Below are positions 27,191 through 34,232 of a DNA stretch of 64,000 nucleotides, in pieces; the first letter of the stretch is position 1, and every line of letters starts with the position of its first letter. The translations under genes were made by a program, and so were the position numbers. Under the pieces are notes generated by a model that worked only from the letters and a program-made list of their open reading frames with translations, was not told the DNA's origin and ran no database searches. This DNA is from Gemmatimonadota bacterium (GTDB taxonomy: Bacteria; Latescibacterota; UBA2968), in assembly GCA_009838845.1 (NCBI GenBank), contig VXRD01000104.1, forward strand, positions 1 to 64,000, read 5' to 3'.

Positions 27191-29932
27191 ATGTCAAAAC
27201 GCGCGTTTGTTATCCTCATTTTGGGTTTTGCCGTTTTTGCAGCTTTTGTTGGGCTGAGGCTGCTCTCGGTGATTTATACCGATTATCTCTGGTTTTCATC
27301 ACTCGGTTTTCACGACGTATTTATCACCATTATACGCACCAAAACCCTCGCCTTTTTCGCATTTGGTAGTGTTTTTGCACTGATCTGCGGTATCAGTATT
27401 GTCGCTGCTCGGCGCTATGGACAGCCCACCCGCATCATGGCGCTTGAGGTTATTATCGATGGCGATGTTCCCATACCGCCTGATCACTCTCTCCGACAGC
27501 GTTACGCCTGGATCGGCATTGTCGCGCTGTTGTCCTTTTTTATGGGTGTTGCAGGCACTTCGGCCTGGTCAGTGGTTCTAAAATACATCAATCCCACCTC
27601 TTTTGATCTGGCTGATCCCATATTTGGTCACGACATAGCATTTTATGTTTTCAGCCTGCCGCTGTACAATTTTCTGCAGGGTTGGTTCATTTCTGCAATT
27701 ATTGTGACGGGGATTGCCTCGATTGTTTCCTATCATCAGGATAGAGCGGTTCGATACGATGACAAGCGCTGGATTACGACCCCACATGTGCGAGCACATG
27801 TCTCGATTCTCGCTGCTATTCTCGCTCTTTTACTCGCATGGGGATATTGGCTAAAAAAATACGAGTTGCTCTATTCTTTTCGCAAAGAGGCTTTTTTTGG
27901 CGCGGGTTATACAGATCTCAATATCCAGATCTGGGCTTACTATCTGATGCTTTTTGGGCTGGTTGTTCTCGCGGGGTTGCTCTTTTACAATGTGCGCGTT
28001 CGCACATGGAAGATTCCCGGATTTGGCGCGGCGGGCTATCTCGGTGCGATCATTGTCGTGAGTTGGTGCATCCCTATTATTTTTGAATTGGTGGTTGTGC
28101 GACCCAATGAATTTGACAGAGAAAAGCCCTATATTCAACATGCCATCAATTACACGCGCAAAGCATATCGTCTGGACAAGATCGAGGAGGTGCCTTTTCC
28201 CGGCGAATCTGATCTGACTGCGGACGATATTGCAAATAATCAGGCTACCATACAAAGTATTCCGCTGTGGGATCGCCGTCCGCTTATGGACACGTATTCT
28301 CAGATCCAGGAAATTCGGTCCTATTACAAATTTCGAAGTGTCGATGTGGATCGCTATCGCATTGACGGCACGTATCGACAAGTGATGCTGGCCGCACGCG
28401 AACTGGCGAGAAATCCGCGCGATTTACCAGGGGATACATGGGTCAATCGGCATCTTGTGTACACGCATGGATACGGTCTGGTCATGAGTCCGGCCAATGA
28501 GATTGCCGCCGAAGGGCTGCCGGGTTTTCTGCTGAAGGATATTCCACCGGTTACATCGAATGGCATAGAGGTCGTTCGCCCCGAACTCTACTACGGGGAA
28601 GACATGCGCGATTACATCATCGTTCGGACCAATACACCCGAATTTGACTATCCCAAAGGCGATGAGAATATATATACGAATTATCAGGGGCGCGGTGGCG
28701 TGCTGTTGGATGGATTTTTGAAGCGCCTTTTATTTTCCATTCGCTTTGTCGATCCATTTATTCTTTTTACCGATGCGATAACGCCCCAAAGTCGCATTGT
28801 GTTTGACCGGCATATCGGCACCCGCTTTGGAGAAGATGCGCCGCGGCGGTTTGATAAAATTGCCCCATTTCTCCGTTTTGACAACGATCCCTATCTCGCC
28901 GTGGTTGAAGGCCGCCTGCTCTGGATACAGGATGCTTATACTATATCCAATATGTTTCCCTATTCGATGCCTTATGGGCGGCCCTATGTGCGAGAAATGA
29001 ATTATATTCGCAATTCTGTCAAAGTGGTGCTCGACGCGTACAATGGGAGTGTCACTTTCTATGCCTGGGATACGAGTGACCCTCTCCTCAAGACCTATAT
29101 GGCGATTTTCCCGCATCTGTTCAAGTCGGCTGATGAAATCGGTCCCGCACTTCGCGCACACCTGCGGTATCCGATAGATCTATTTGATATTCAGGCGGCG
29201 CTTTACAATACCTATCACATGACCACTCCGATTGTGTTCTACAACCGCGAAGATGTGTGGGAGATTCCCACAGAATACTACGGGACAGTTGATCGCCCTA
29301 TTCGCATGCATCCGTATTATGTGATGGCGCGTTTGCCGGGTGAAGACCGCGAAGAATATATTCTCATGTTGCCGGCTACGCCTTCCAACAAACCCAATAT
29401 GATCGGCTGGATATTTGCGCGTTGTGACGGAGAAAATTACGGACGACTCGTGGTCTATAAATTACCGAAGGAAAAGCTTATTTACGGGCCGATGCTTATT
29501 GAACAACGCATCAATCAGGATACCGATATTTCCCGAGAAATTACTCTGTGGGACCAGCGCGGGTCAGATGTCATACGCGGCAATTTGCTGGTTATTCCCA
29601 TCCGCAATTCGTTCATTTATGTCGAGCCGCTTTATTTGCGCGCATCCCAACACGGCATGCCAGAGCTCAAGCGCGTGCTCGCCGTTCACGGTGACCGCCT
29701 CGCTATGGGCGAAGATCTCAACGATGCTCTCAACAGAGTTTTTTCCATAACAAAGGGCGTGCCAGTTCGGGATACGGAAGATTTGCCAGAAGACCTCAAA
29801 ATACTCGCCCGGCAGGCCTATCAGCAATTTGAAACGGCGCAAAAGCACTTGCAAGCGGGCGCGTTTTCTGATTATGGCCAAAGCGTTGAGGCACTGCGCC
29901 AAACTCTTCGGCGCATGAATGAAAATGAATAA
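27191..29932 (+). CDS. UPF0182 family large membrane protein
   Basis: A 913-aa member of UPF0182 (COG1615). About seven transmembrane helices lie in residues 5-300, including the diagnostic YTDYLWFSSLGFHDVF, FGHDIAFYVFSLPLYNFLQGW and FRKEAFFGAGYTDLNIQI segments. A very large extracytoplasmic domain (about 300-870) follows, with TNTPEFDYPKGDENIYTNY and RFDNDPYLAVVEGRLLWIQDAYT. The C-terminus is helical. The function of the family is not established. The stop overlaps the murQ start by 14 bp, an uncommon pairing that suggests an envelope or cell-wall connection. Confidence 0.92.
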   Translation: MSKRAFVILILGFAVFAAFVGLRLLSVIYTDYLWFSSLGFHDVFITIIRTKTLAFFAFGSVFALICGISIVAARRYGQPTRIMALEVIIDGDVPIPPDHSLRQRYAWIGIVALLSFFMGVAGTSAWSVVLKYINPTSFDLADPIFGHDIAFYVFSLPLYNFLQGWFISAIIVTGIASIVSYHQDRAVRYDDKRWITTPHVRAHVSILAAILALLLAWGYWLKKYELLYSFRKEAFFGAGYTDLNIQIWAYYLMLFGLVVLAGLLFYNVRVRTWKIPGFGAAGYLGAIIVVSWCIPIIFELVVVRPNEFDREKPYIQHAINYTRKAYRLDKIEEVPFPGESDLTADDIANNQATIQSIPLWDRRPLMDTYSQIQEIRSYYKFRSVDVDRYRIDGTYRQVMLAARELARNPRDLPGDTWVNRHLVYTHGYGLVMSPANEIAAEGLPGFLLKDIPPVTSNGIEVVRPELYYGEDMRDYIIVRTNTPEFDYPKGDENIYTNYQGRGGVLLDGFLKRLLFSIRFVDPFILFTDAITPQSRIVFDRHIGTRFGEDAPRRFDKIAPFLRFDNDPYLAVVEGRLLWIQDAYTISNMFPYSMPYGRPYVREMNYIRNSVKVVLDAYNGSVTFYAWDTSDPLLKTYMAIFPHLFKSADEIGPALRAHLRYPIDLFDIQAALYNTYHMTTPIVFYNREDVWEIPTEYYGTVDRPIRMHPYYVMARLPGEDREEYILMLPATPSNKPNMIGWIFARCDGENYGRLVVYKLPKEKLIYGPMLIEQRINQDTDISREITLWDQRGSDVIRGNLLVIPIRNSFIYVEPLYLRASQHGMPELKRVLAVHGDRLAMGEDLNDALNRVFSITKGVPVRDTEDLPEDLKILARQAYQQFETAQKHLQAGAFSDYGQSVEALRQTLRRMNENE

Positions 29933-30833
29933 ACAGGTCTCAAAGTGGGCTGGATTGCTCACTGAACAGCGCAATTCCAATAGCACCCATATTGACCGGT
30001 GTTCGACAGTGGATGCACTGCGCCTTATCAATACCGAAGATCAAAAAGTAGCGCGTACTGTTGAAGGTGTGATAGATGATGTTGCCAGAGCTGTCGATCT
30101 CGTGGTGTCGGCGTTTCAAAAGGGCGGTCGTCTCTTTTATGTTGGCGCGGGAACCAGCGGTCGTCTCGGCGTTCTCGATGCGTCTGAATGCCCGCCGACC
30201 TACGGCGTGTCACCCGATCTCGTTCAGGGGGTTATCGCGGGCGGTATTCCCGCTTTGACGCGTTCACAAGAAGGCGCAGAAGACCACCCTGAAGACGGAA
30301 AAGCCGCGCTCAAAGATCGCGGTTGTACATCCGATGATGTTGTTATGGGCATTGCGGCGAGTGGGGTGACGCCTTTTGTGCTCGGTGCGCTCGAATACGC
30401 GCGATGTATTGGCGCAAAGACTTTGTTTTTTACATGCAATCCAGATGTCGTAGAAAAGGCGCGCGCAGATGTCGCGATTGTTCCTGTGGTGGGGCCAGAG
30501 GTCGTTACCGGTTCGACGCGCATGAAAGCGGGCACGGCAACCAAACTCGTGCTCAATATGATTACTACAACGGCTATGATCCGCCTGGGTAAAGTCTATG
30601 AAAATCTGATGGTTGATCTCGCGCCGACCTGCGAAAAACTCATAGATCGCGCCGAACGCATTTTGGAGATCGTATCTGATCTGACTCCTGAAGAAAGTCG
30701 CCGGGCACTCGACAATGCACAGGGAGATCTCAAAACGGCGATTGTCATGACAAAACGGGCTGTCTCTATAGAAACAGCCCGTGAATTACTGCGGCAAAAC
30801 GATGGTGTTATCAACAAGGTTCTGGTGGATTAA
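29919..30833 (+). CDS. murQ: N-acetylmuramic acid 6-phosphate etherase
   Basis: A 304-aa SIS-domain enzyme. TEQRNSNSTHIDRCSTVDALRLIN, VGAGTSGRLGVLDASECPPTYG, IAGGIPALTRSQEGAEDHPEDG and GPEVVTGSTRMKAGTATKLVLNMITT are all standard MurQ segments, and the Glu in DASECPPT is the proposed catalytic residue. It cleaves the lactyl ether of MurNAc-6-phosphate to give GlcNAc-6-phosphate in cell-wall recycling. No PTS or anhMurNAc kinase gene is adjacent. An internal ATG at 29925 is an alternative start. The gene meets the convergent ClpX-like gene with a 4-bp overlap. Confidence 0.96.
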   Translation: MKMNKQVSKWAGLLTEQRNSNSTHIDRCSTVDALRLINTEDQKVARTVEGVIDDVARAVDLVVSAFQKGGRLFYVGAGTSGRLGVLDASECPPTYGVSPDLVQGVIAGGIPALTRSQEGAEDHPEDGKAALKDRGCTSDDVVMGIAASGVTPFVLGALEYARCIGAKTLFFTCNPDVVEKARADVAIVPVVGPEVVTGSTRMKAGTATKLVLNMITTTAMIRLGKVYENLMVDLAPTCEKLIDRAERILEIVSDLTPEESRRALDNAQGDLKTAIVMTKRAVSIETARELLRQNDGVINKVLVD

Positions 30834-32359
30834 GTCCTGTTGTGTTCTCCTTGATAGAAGGTTTTTACCAGACCGTTGAGAAAGTCTTTGGGCTGGCGCA
30901 CGGCTTCTGCGGTAATGACGTAAGATTGGTGCCCCAATAGCTTTAGCCCGTGCCCGTAATCATCGAACAAATCCGGGCACACTTCGTCAATTGTTCGATT
31001 TTCTTTTGCGGCTTTTTCGGCAAGTGCGCCCAGTGCCTCATCGTCAAAGGTGAGCGCGATACCATAGGCGTCTTGGAATCGCTTGACAAACGCGCTCGTG
31101 CCTCGCAAGATCAGCAACTGCTGAAGCGCGAGTTCGGGGTCTTCAATTACATTTTTCGTGACGTGAAACGAATCGATTTCTGTCGATGGCAATGATTTTT
31201 CAAATTTTAGCAACGCGCGTTCACATACGCTGACCAGACTTCGCGCGCCGGTTTGTTCCAGGGCGGCTTGTTCGGCCAATAGCCTGAGCGCGTCGTCGTC
31301 AAAAGTCAGATCAATGCCGTAGGCTTTGAAGTCGCGTTTTTTGCCCAGAATTACCGAACTGGTCTGGCTCTGCAAAATCGCGTAGAGGTCGTCCACGCTC
31401 AAGGGTGTTAAAATTGCTGTTACGGGCAATCGCCCCACAAACTCAGACTCAAAACCGTATTCGATCATGTCTTCTGTTTTGGCGTGCTGCAAAAGTTCTG
31501 TGTGGTCCTGTTCGTGAGACATGTCGCGCCCGGATTGGAACCCGACTTTGCCCAGATTGAGACGTTTTCGCACGATGTCATCGAGGCCGCTAAATGCACC
31601 GCTTACGATAAACAGGATGTTGCGCGTGTTAATTTTTTGACGCTCTACTTTGCCACTGCGCTGAAATTGCATCATGGATTCCATCTGCGATGTGAGGTCG
31701 TGTGGTGCTTTGAGATCGACATCGGTTTCTTCCATGAGCTTGAGCAAGTTGCGCTGAACGCCCGTGCGCGATACGTCTGGGCCGACCAGATTTGAGGCCG
31801 ATGCGATTTTGTCTATTTCGTCGATGTACACGATGCCGTATTGCGCCATTTCAATGCTGCCATTGGCTTCGCGCACGAGTTCTCGAATCAGGTCTTCGAC
31901 ATCGCCGCCCACATATCCCGTTTCGCTGAATTTTGTCGCATCGCCCTTGACGAATGGAACGCCAATGCGTTGTGCAATCAACTTAATCAAATACGTTTTG
32001 CCCACGCCCGTAGGCCCAATCAGGAGGATATTGTTTTTGATGTGTCCCACATTTTTGCGCGAAAAATCCGGGTCTTCGCGGTCGAGTTTCATGCGATTGT
32101 AGTGCGTACATATCTTGGTGGCCAATACTTCTTTTGCTTCGGATTGCTGTACCACATATTTGTTTAGATAAGCCTCCAATTCTTCGGGCTTGAGGTCAAA
32201 ATCTATGGTTTGTTCTGCGGGTTCTTCCACGCGGGGACCTTCCTGTATCCCATCGGCTTCTCCCTGCGGAAAGACTACCTGATTCCCGTATTTTTCTTCG
32301 AGGAAGTTTTTGAGATCTTTTTGCAATTCTGCAGGAGAAAAAGGTCTTTTTTCAGACAT
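30830..32359 (-). CDS. ClpX-like AAA+ ATPase with a duplicated C-terminal segment
   Basis: A 509-aa AAA+ unfoldase. Walker A GPTGVGKT (115-122), pore loop GYVG (149-152), Walker B GIVYIDEID (175-183) and sensor-2 TGARSL (370-375) are intact. GKVGF (270-274) sits where ClpX has its IGF loop for docking ClpP. It differs from normal ClpX by lacking the N-terminal four-Cys zinc domain and by a C-terminal extension (about 415-509). That extension repeats the small-domain motif: AYGIDLTFDDDAL at 346-358 and AYGIALTFDDEAL at 430-442. No clpP is nearby. It is probably a ClpX paralogue with its own substrates or adaptor. Confidence 0.85.
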   Translation of the reverse strand: MSEKRPFSPAELQKDLKNFLEEKYGNQVVFPQGEADGIQEGPRVEEPAEQTIDFDLKPEELEAYLNKYVVQQSEAKEVLATKICTHYNRMKLDREDPDFSRKNVGHIKNNILLIGPTGVGKTYLIKLIAQRIGVPFVKGDATKFSETGYVGGDVEDLIRELVREANGSIEMAQYGIVYIDEIDKIASASNLVGPDVSRTGVQRNLLKLMEETDVDLKAPHDLTSQMESMMQFQRSGKVERQKINTRNILFIVSGAFSGLDDIVRKRLNLGKVGFQSGRDMSHEQDHTELLQHAKTEDMIEYGFESEFVGRLPVTAILTPLSVDDLYAILQSQTSSVILGKKRDFKAYGIDLTFDDDALRLLAEQAALEQTGARSLVSVCERALLKFEKSLPSTEIDSFHVTKNVIEDPELALQQLLILRGTSAFVKRFQDAYGIALTFDDEALGALAEKAAKENRTIDEVCPDLFDDYGHGLKLLGHQSYVITAEAVRQPKDFLNGLVKTFYQGEHNRT

Positions 32360-32489: not shown

Positions 32490-34232
32490 ATGAATCTCAG
32501 TCCACTAACACTTCGCAGATTATGCGATGAATTGCGGCCTCAGATTGACCATCGCCTGATCCGCGATGTGTTCCTCGTTGGTCGGCACGATCTGTTTCTG
32601 CATCTGGGCGATGCCGGGTATCTCTTGCTTTCCGCACATCCAGGTCGAAGTTGTCTGATGCTGACGCAACTGCCCAGCGAGGCCCAGCGCTTACGCATTC
32701 CCTGGGCAGATCGCTATTTGCGCGGTGCGGGTATTATTGGCATTGAGCATGTTCCCCACGAACGCATTGTGCATATCATAGTTCGCAAGCGCGACCGCAT
32801 TGGCACGGTTACTGATTCCCGCATTATATGTGAATTGATCAACAGGTATGCCAATGTTGTTCTCGTCGATATGAGAACGAGCCGAATCCTGGGGGCGCTC
32901 AGGTCCGTTCGCGCGCGCCAGAACCGCGTGCGGGAAATAGCTCCGGGAAAATTCTATCATCCGCCGCCAGCACTTGACCGCATGCCGCCGGAAAGCGCGA
33001 AGCTCTCCTTTTTGGCCGATATTCCCGAAGATGCGCGCGCAGACGCGCTTGTACAACATATTGCGGGGCTTGACCTTTTATCTGCGCGCGAATTGCTTCA
33101 TATTGCTGGTTTTGGGGAGAAACGCCCGCTTTCCGCCAGCGATATCGCGAATTTTGCAGAGATTATTCGCACGTTTTTTGCGAATCCGCCATTTTGTGAC
33201 GGAGGCCTGCGCGTGCGAGAAGGGGATAATCGCAACGCGGTTTGTGCTCTTGGTATTCGGCATACGCAGATAGAACAAGCGTATCGCTCGCTCAGCGAAG
33301 CTATATCGGATGTTGTGGCGTGCGAAGTCGAGTCTGAGGCTCTTAAAGGGCGGCAAAAAAATATCGAGAAGGATCTAAAAAATCGCCTGACTGTCTGCGA
33401 GCGAAAAATTGGGCGTATCCGCGCAGATATCGACGATGCGGCCAATGCAGATCTGTATGAAAAGATGGGGAATGTGCTGATGTGTCACATCGCGCAGATT
33501 CCTGCGAATGTCGATACCATCACGCTTCCCGATGTATTTGACCCGTCTTGCGAGGATATGGTTATCTCCCTCAATCCCCGGCGCACGGCCTCGGAAAATG
33601 CCAGCGCGTACCTCAAGCGGGCGCAGAAAGCGAGAAAAGGCGCCCCCATTCTCGCCAAACGTCTCGAGGTAGCACAGAGGGAGAGGGATGAAATTCTGCA
33701 TTATACAGATCGCCTCAATGCTGTCCGTTTGGAAGCCGAGTTCGACGAGATACGGCGGGAACTGGAAGATGCGCGCCTGATCAAAGCGCCTAAAAAGAGG
33801 CCGCGAGTCAGGTCTAAACGCCAGAGCGGCGATATTCATCCCAGACGGTATCGCACACAGGATGGTTGGCGCGTGCTGGTGGGGCGAAATAATACGGAAA
33901 ACGATAGGCTTACCAAAAGTTCAGGCCGAGACGATTTCTTTTTGCATGTTCACGGATGCCCGGGATCCCATGTGATTCTCAAACGCGATGGCAGAGCGGA
34001 CCACCCCTCTCGAAAAACGCTTGAAGAAGCGGCCTGTCTGGCGGCTTATTGGAGCAAAGCGCGGGGTGCTAAACGTGTGCCAGTCAATTATACAGAGGTT
34101 CGCTATGTGCAAAAACCGCGTGGGGCACCGCCGGGGCTGGTCACGATTCGGAATGAAAAAACTCTGATGGTCTCGCCTCGCGAACTCAAGCGCGAGGATG
34201 AATGGACGAATAGACGAATAGACGAATGGTAA
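32490..34232 (+). CDS. rqcH: NFACT/RqcH-family ribosome quality-control protein
   Basis: A 580-aa NFACT protein: NFACT-N (about 1-220, with LLLSAHPGRSCLMLT and CELINRYANVVLVD), a helix-hairpin-helix region (about 195-240), a long coiled coil (about 280-440) and C-terminal NFACT-R (about 455-570, VLVGRNNTENDRLTKSSGRDDFFLHVHG). RqcH binds stalled 50S subunits and recruits tRNA-Ala for C-terminal alanine tailing. The DR motif needed for tailing in Bacillus RqcH aligns here with Glu91-Arg92 (HERIVHI), a conservative change. The last residues (TNRRIDEW) are encoded by an 8-bp tandem repeat, so the C-terminus may be recently altered. Confidence 0.9.
   Translation: MNLSPLTLRRLCDELRPQIDHRLIRDVFLVGRHDLFLHLGDAGYLLLSAHPGRSCLMLTQLPSEAQRLRIPWADRYLRGAGIIGIEHVPHERIVHIIVRKRDRIGTVTDSRIICELINRYANVVLVDMRTSRILGALRSVRARQNRVREIAPGKFYHPPPALDRMPPESAKLSFLADIPEDARADALVQHIAGLDLLSARELLHIAGFGEKRPLSASDIANFAEIIRTFFANPPFCDGGLRVREGDNRNAVCALGIRHTQIEQAYRSLSEAISDVVACEVESEALKGRQKNIEKDLKNRLTVCERKIGRIRADIDDAANADLYEKMGNVLMCHIAQIPANVDTITLPDVFDPSCEDMVISLNPRRTASENASAYLKRAQKARKGAPILAKRLEVAQRERDEILHYTDRLNAVRLEAEFDEIRRELEDARLIKAPKKRPRVRSKRQSGDIHPRRYRTQDGWRVLVGRNNTENDRLTKSSGRDDFFLHVHGCPGSHVILKRDGRADHPSRKTLEEAACLAAYWSKARGAKRVPVNYTEVRYVQKPRGAPPGLVTIRNEKTLMVSPRELKREDEWTNRRIDEW
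34205..34228 (+). repeat. Three 8-bp units (GACGAATA) at the 3' end of the NFACT gene
   Basis: Units at 34205-34212, 34213-34220 and 34221-34228 (last base changed). They are in frame with the final codons. The inverse (TATTCGTC) resembles the units of the larger array 33 bp downstream. Confidence 0.8.

Follow-up and report, generated by a model that had tools for sequence, protein, structure and literature searches.

A predicted ClpX-type AAA+ unfoldase family with a second small domain, an exchanged loop and no zinc-binding domain

The IGF loops of ClpX bind ClpP, and its RKH loops read the ssrA tag. Two described variants of this unfoldase bear on the locus analyzed here. The first is ClpX3 of Myxococcus xanthus (MXAN_2743), which, according to the part of the source available to us (PMC11423568), has neither the N-terminal domain nor the RKH motif, is encoded apart from clpP and is 43.54% identical to E. 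coli ClpX. The same part of that paper reports poor growth of the deletion mutant at 36 degrees and likewise assigns the reading of ssrA to the RKH loops; its authors put forward horizontal transfer as an origin, without naming a family there. The second is mitochondrial ClpX, which, in the accessible part of PMC7077987, activates ALA synthase through partial unfolding.

The window (the whole stretch of 64,000 nucleotides that was analyzed) encodes a ClpX-like unfoldase, and we use X as shorthand for the family of this ORF (30830-32359; Table 1). The stop of X and the stop of murQ overlap tail to tail by 4 bases (30830-30833). In a Pfam scan the X protein matches AAA_2 and one ClpB_D2-small domain, and the ClpX zinc finger is absent. 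The initial annotation, made from the sequence alone, had described a ClpX-like ATPase in which the Cys4 domain is missing and an IGF-like VGF loop is kept, and had suggested from this a ClpX paralogue with altered substrate delivery and possible ClpP docking. The missing Cys4 domain was borne out by Pfam zf-C4_ClpX, which matches the other ClpX of the genome and not X, and the VGF is present at residues 272-274. In the structure model the leader, residues 1-53, consists of a single predicted helix, with the remainder at low confidence.

Table 1. Positions of X, its parts and its two neighbors in the window.
Feature	Coordinates	Strand	Basis
X CDS, ClpX-like unfoldase, 509 aa	30830..32359	-	ORF without inner stops
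X residues 1-53, short N-terminal leader replacing the ClpX zinc-binding domain	32201..32359	-	no zf-C4_ClpX; model
X residues 54-317, AAA+ large domain: Walker A, Walker B, GYVG pore-1 loop, arginine finger	31409..32200	-	
X residues 212-244, 33-residue loop replacing the RKH-loop region	31628..31726	-	
X residues 272-274, VGF, counterpart of the IGF ClpP-docking tripeptide	31538..31546	-	
X residues 318-407, first AAA+ small domain, sensor-2 GAR at 371-373	31139..31408	-	
X motif copy 1, AYGIDLTFDDDAL, residues 346-358	31286..31324	-	
X residues 408-509, second degenerate small domain without sensor-2 GAR, terminal long helix	30833..31138	-	
X motif copy 2, AYGIALTFDDEAL, residues 431-443	31031..31069	-	
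N-acetylmuramic acid 6-phosphate etherase (MurQ), convergent neighbor of X	29919..30833	+	
NFACT protein (RqcH/FbpA type), divergent neighbor of X	32490..34232	+	

Sequence and predicted fold together establish in X the ATPase and pore core, the exchange of a loop, the absence of the zinc domain, the docking-loop Gly-Phe and the doubling of the small domain. The Walker A lysine, the Walker B Asp-Glu, the pore-loop Tyr-Val, Gly-Phe 273-274, Arg310 and GAR 371-373 are invariant in all 102 aligned members, a set from which 8 of the 109 loci found had been dropped as near-duplicates (L071, L072, L079 and L088) or as partial, truncated or N-containing sequences (L048, L076, L096 and L126). The best structural match of the X model is ClpX (Z 33.6, rmsd 1.9 over 308 residues). 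The residue before Gly-Phe is I in 52, M in 31, V in 14 and L in 5 of the 102 members, and docking of X to ClpP, with which the invariant Gly-Phe fits, is possible on the evidence of sequence. The stretch 212-244 has 33 residues in every one of the 102 members, versus 22 in E. coli ClpX and 11 in E. coli HslU, and in each of them at least 96 residues follow residue 408, beyond the first small domain. The pattern C..C...C..C occurs in none of 105 members (a few of them truncated) versus 19 of the 21 ClpX rows used for comparison; as a string, RKH is present in a single member of the 105, inside a C-terminal insert, and again in 19 of those 21 rows. The altered substrate delivery that had been proposed fits the loss of the zinc domain together with a change absent from the initial annotation: all 102 members have exchanged the RKH-loop region for a longer loop, the length of which is constant.

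The initial annotation also held that the C-terminal extension repeats part of the AAA+ small domain, pointing to a motif that occurs twice. The first copy lies where it was placed (residues 346-358), and the second begins one residue later than given (431-443, not 430-442). The repeat itself stands, with a profile score far above that of shuffled controls and with an extension that, folded alone, resembles the small domains of ClpX and HslU. In a profile-profile comparison with the 102-row alignment, the extension (residues 409-505) matched X's own small domain with a probability of 97.2 and a score of 57.4, compared with a maximum score of 19.7 and a maximum probability of 9.9 in 100 column shuffles and with scores of 12.5 for the reversed extension and 15.7 for the comparison with the large domain of X. 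The match to the small domain of canonical ClpX is weaker (probability 60.8, profile comparison with 6 sequences), and the extension alone matches ClpB_D2-small in Pfam at a level that is not significant (E 0.21, 12.1 of 21.9 bits). The two 13-mers are identical at 11 of 13 positions in the window protein, the highest value among the 102 members; because the family median is only 5 of 13, the duplication is old and the near-identity in the window an extreme value. A recent tandem duplication is ruled out by this drop in copy identity across the family.

Modeled alone from 30 sequences, the extension reached a mean pLDDT of 84.5 and an order of elements (helix, strand, helix, helix, helix, strand, helix, helix) close to the one that the small domain shows in the full-length model. 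The full-length model (pLDDT 80.1, pTM 0.70) is the best of five, the other four having a mean confidence of 70.5-71.7; as a monomer, it gives no position of the extra domain within a ring. With Foldseek, the best 50 of 361 rows (E up to 10) for the extension are all ClpX or HslU, with a best E of 0.041 and TM-scores by query of 0.46-0.59. Since no match in this search reaches E 0.001, the structural support for the extension lies in consistency and not in a single strong match. The 50 rows listed by VIA-align are ClpX or HslU plus one ClpA, with Z up to 9.0; in this method a Z below about 8 can reflect no more than a shared arrangement, and the best rows for the extension lie at 8-9. The letters of the sensor-2 GAR occur after residue 408 in 2 of the 102 members, and because this motif is lost, the extra small domain should not read nucleotide.

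The status of X as a ClpX paralogue is confirmed by a tig-clpP-clpX operon elsewhere in the genome. Located on another contig, directly after tig and clpP, a canonical ClpX of 415 aa with a zinc finger is encoded, to which X is 36% identical over 354 columns; a second clpP is also present. On contig C91 of the same genome (L174, 239-1836) we observed adjacent ORFs that resemble 20S proteasome beta and alpha subunits, one through a sub-cut-off HslV match and the rest by eye, and to judge from these reading frames the genome may carry a bacterial proteasome besides ClpP. The initial annotation had named a sole clpX whose architecture is common in its phylum as the finding that would speak against it. 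The architecture did prove common in the class (45 of 47 genomes, own order included), and X is not the sole clpX.

In the tree, which contains 28 X and 20 ClpX rows, X (support 100/99), ClpX (100/98) and HslU (100/99) form three clades, so that X and ClpX fall, as had been suggested for examination, into separate and fully supported groups. One divergent ClpX-like row (L172) was left out; this third, strongly divergent ClpX-like protein of 370 aa from genome G061 stood beside X on a branch of 4.32 in the first tree. With HslU taken as outgroup, which is an assumption, X is sister to ClpX. The family is a sister lineage of the heavily studied ClpX with different substrate-facing parts and an added domain. 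The window protein stays under the cut-offs of the NCBIfam ClpX models NF003745 and TIGR00382 (316.5 of 359 and 289.6 of 370.75 bits) and under that of the HslU model (171.5 of 362.45 bits), and scans of this protein against Pfam and NCBIfam found no model of X's own. X is predicted to work like ClpX, yet it fails four ClpX features: the zinc domain, the RKH loop, the equivalog cut-offs and the clade. Membership in HslU is rejected on the absence of an I-domain between Walker A and Walker B, the sub-cut-off score and the separate clade. A defense function was likewise rejected, PADLOC giving weak AAA-type matches only (best E 7.4e-5). Among the papers listed from a part of the open literature, none was recognizable as describing the X family or clpX beside ahb genes.

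X was found in 48 of 60 relatives searched, some of the copies being fragments at contig ends: in all 21 genomes of its own order (own genome included), in 24 of 26 others from the class and in 3 of 13 from the rest of the phylum. Another ClpX-type match is present in 47 of these 48 X-bearing relatives. Two further samples gave X in 94 of 197 genomes from the phylum of a Desulfosarcina genome and in 29 of 149 from the phylum of a Spirochaetota MAG. Pattern matches in the species collection numbered at least 577, of which 553, not individually checked, encode an X relative by tblastn. The best 80 of these 553 were kept, and they are labeled Latescibacterota, Spirochaetota, KSB1, Calditrichota, Zixibacteria, Deltaproteobacteria and Thermodesulfobacteriota, and include two MAGs labeled Gemmatimonadetes or Gemmatimonas. 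Among these best 80 loci, 45 encode a long form (>545 aa) with about 70 extra residues before the second small domain, a count that leaves out L071, whose length stems from an early start codon. The Spirochaetota-labeled loci L083, L089 and L091 have the upstream neighbor clusters c121 and c122 in common.

The gene order downstream of X differs among the 45 long-form loci, for which neighbor clusters were built by blastp linkage. A gene of the ahbC/D or hemB clusters follows on the same strand within about 700 bases in 27 of them, a dnaJ cluster gene follows on the same strand within about 700 bases in 13, and the remaining 5, one of which lies on a contig that ends 297 bases on, have neither. 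Representatives of these clusters were identified as 12,18-didecarboxysiroheme deacetylase AhbC (779.9 of 650 bits), porphobilinogen synthase (530.2 of 297 bits), heme b synthase AhbD (534.2 of 500 bits, for a stretch that was shifted slightly) and a DnaJ-type protein that stays under the DnaJ equivalog cut-off (296.2 of 377.2 bits); in one family scan the L128 reference was displaced, starting 17 codons ahead of the ORF and stopping 17 codons before its end. In an operon-like order, ahbC, hemB and an ahbD-type gene come after X in L128, L113, L116, L125, L130, L145, L147 and other loci of Thermodesulfobacteriota type. A DnaJ-type gene overlaps X or begins within about 135 bases of it in L095, L097, L104, L105, L108, L109 and L112, and also in L114, L118, L120, L126, L135 and L143; in L095, L118 and L120 the gene next after dnaJ encodes a LonB-like protease (149.4 bits for the L118 copy, cut-off 516.6).

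Among the 197 genomes from the Desulfosarcina phylum, 94 hold X and 99 hold AhbC; 68 have both, 31 AhbC only, 72 neither, and in 26 of the 94 genomes with X no AhbC match passed the threshold applied. A Fisher test of this association gives p 3e-9, a value that depends on the E-threshold and overstates the evidence because the 197 genomes are related. Despite this relatedness, the order X-ahbC is informative: in 48 of the 68 genomes that hold both, AhbC lies on the strand of X and starts no more than 1.1 kb past the X match. The position of X beside heme genes in many relatives of sulfate reducers suggests a dedicated unfoldase, and in many genomes of Thermodesulfobacteriota type X likely serves anaerobic (Ahb) heme synthesis or folding work with DnaJ. 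This gene order provides a testable lead to an unfoldase devoted to anaerobic heme synthesis. A universal link to heme is rejected for the window's own lineage: among the 60 relatives, no AhbC was found in the 48 genomes that carry X, and the three genomes that hold AhbC are all without X.

The divergent neighbor of X in the window may point in another direction. Tails of Ala added by RqcH are known degrons of ClpXP. An NFACT protein is encoded divergently from X within 2.5 kb at 12 of 12 loci examined in the order, and was not found within that distance at the other loci of the class; outside the order it is near X at one Calditrichota locus, 2.4 kb away and in another arrangement. This neighbor hints at a possible link of X to ribosome rescue or to the degradation of Ala-tails, which we treat as no more than an idea, since, the Calditrichota locus aside, the two genes adjoin in a single order.

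Our preferred reading, to which we attach moderate confidence, is that X is a second, dedicated hexameric unfoldase of ClpX type that is specific for particular clients and is predicted to feed, probably, ClpP. Six X subunits would form a ClpX-like ring, in which ATP-driven GYVG loops would pull in clients without an ssrA tag. The clients would be picked by the new loop and by partners, independently of the adaptors that bind the zinc domain, and the extra small domain might act as a brace or as a docking platform of the ring. Clients would then be handed to the cell's ClpP or released partly unfolded. Among the points that count against this reading, the C-terminal domain on each subunit might impede the docking of ClpP, and a peptidase gene linked to X is absent; the lack of AhbC in the X-bearing relatives of the window and in 26 of the 94 genomes above, and the Foldseek E-values of the extension, also weigh against it. 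In the 110 X loci fetched (flanks of 8 kb or less), clpP is near X once, about 7.3 kb off; the canonical clpX adjoins clpP in 15 of the 20 stretches retrieved for it, a set that includes short ones.

This location outside clpP operons would also be expected if X were a remodeling chaperone independent of ClpP, held apart from ClpP by its second small domain or by having no peptidase of its own. The operon-like pairing of X with dnaJ or heme enzymes in 40 of the 45 long-form loci agrees with such a role, for which mitochondrial ClpX and ALAS, as described in the part of PMC7077987 at hand, provide a precedent. Against it stands the docking-loop Gly-Phe, whose invariance in all 102 members is difficult to account for if X has no ClpP to bind, and we regard this alternative as rather unlikely, though deserving of serious consideration. 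X might instead drive another peptidase, for example HslV or the proteasome-like pair of its genome. Six consensus positions that X has in common with HslU against ClpX, and the two adjacent proteasome-like ORFs on contig C91, could be cited in favor of this; however, 15 consensus positions side with ClpX against HslU, no HslV above the cut-off was found in X's genome, and the docking-loop region of X is of ClpX type, a region that E. coli HslU does not have, which makes this explanation improbable. That X is a normal ClpX altered by drift within a single lineage, or an artefact of assembly or fusion, is hardly credible despite its 39% identity to E. coli ClpX over 354 columns, given a clade support of 100/99 and the recurrence of orthologues with this architecture, which 48 of the 60 relatives carry, as do 94 of 197 and 29 of 149 genomes sampled from two other phyla.

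Beyond the preferred reading of a client-specific ClpX-type unfoldase, we tentatively consider a broader one, which is possible but on balance doubtful: X may be a third branch of the ClpX/HslU group, spread over several phyla, whose rings would combine tandem small domains with a new pore-entry loop and which in anaerobes would be a dedicated heme-pathway unfoldase activating or removing an Ahb enzyme. The family also lends itself naturally to testing which features of ClpX are required for docking to ClpP and which for recognizing tags.

X has in common with ClpX of the E. coli type the AAA+ core, the GYVG pore loop, the IGF-type loop and the sensor-2 GAR; unlike it, X is without the zinc domain, has a longer loop in place of the RKH region and carries a second small domain. 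HslU belongs to the same AAA+ superclade, and a few HslU-like motif residues occur in X, but X has no I-domain and possesses the ClpP-loop region that is absent from E. coli HslU. For Myxococcus ClpX3 the comparison relies on the description in the available part of PMC11423568: as in X, the N-terminal domain and the RKH motif are missing and the gene stands away from clpP, its 43.54% identity to E. coli ClpX falls within the range of 36.8-43.9% that we obtained for 110 sequences of the X family, and ClpX3 may be a member of this family. The tie of mitochondrial ClpX to heme synthesis, as given in the part of PMC7077987 used here, parallels the position of X beside ahbC-hemB-ahbD, the X side of this parallel being gene order only. 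If the heme-pathway role of X in anaerobes is true, it would constitute a bacterial parallel to the action of mitochondrial ClpX on ALA synthase.
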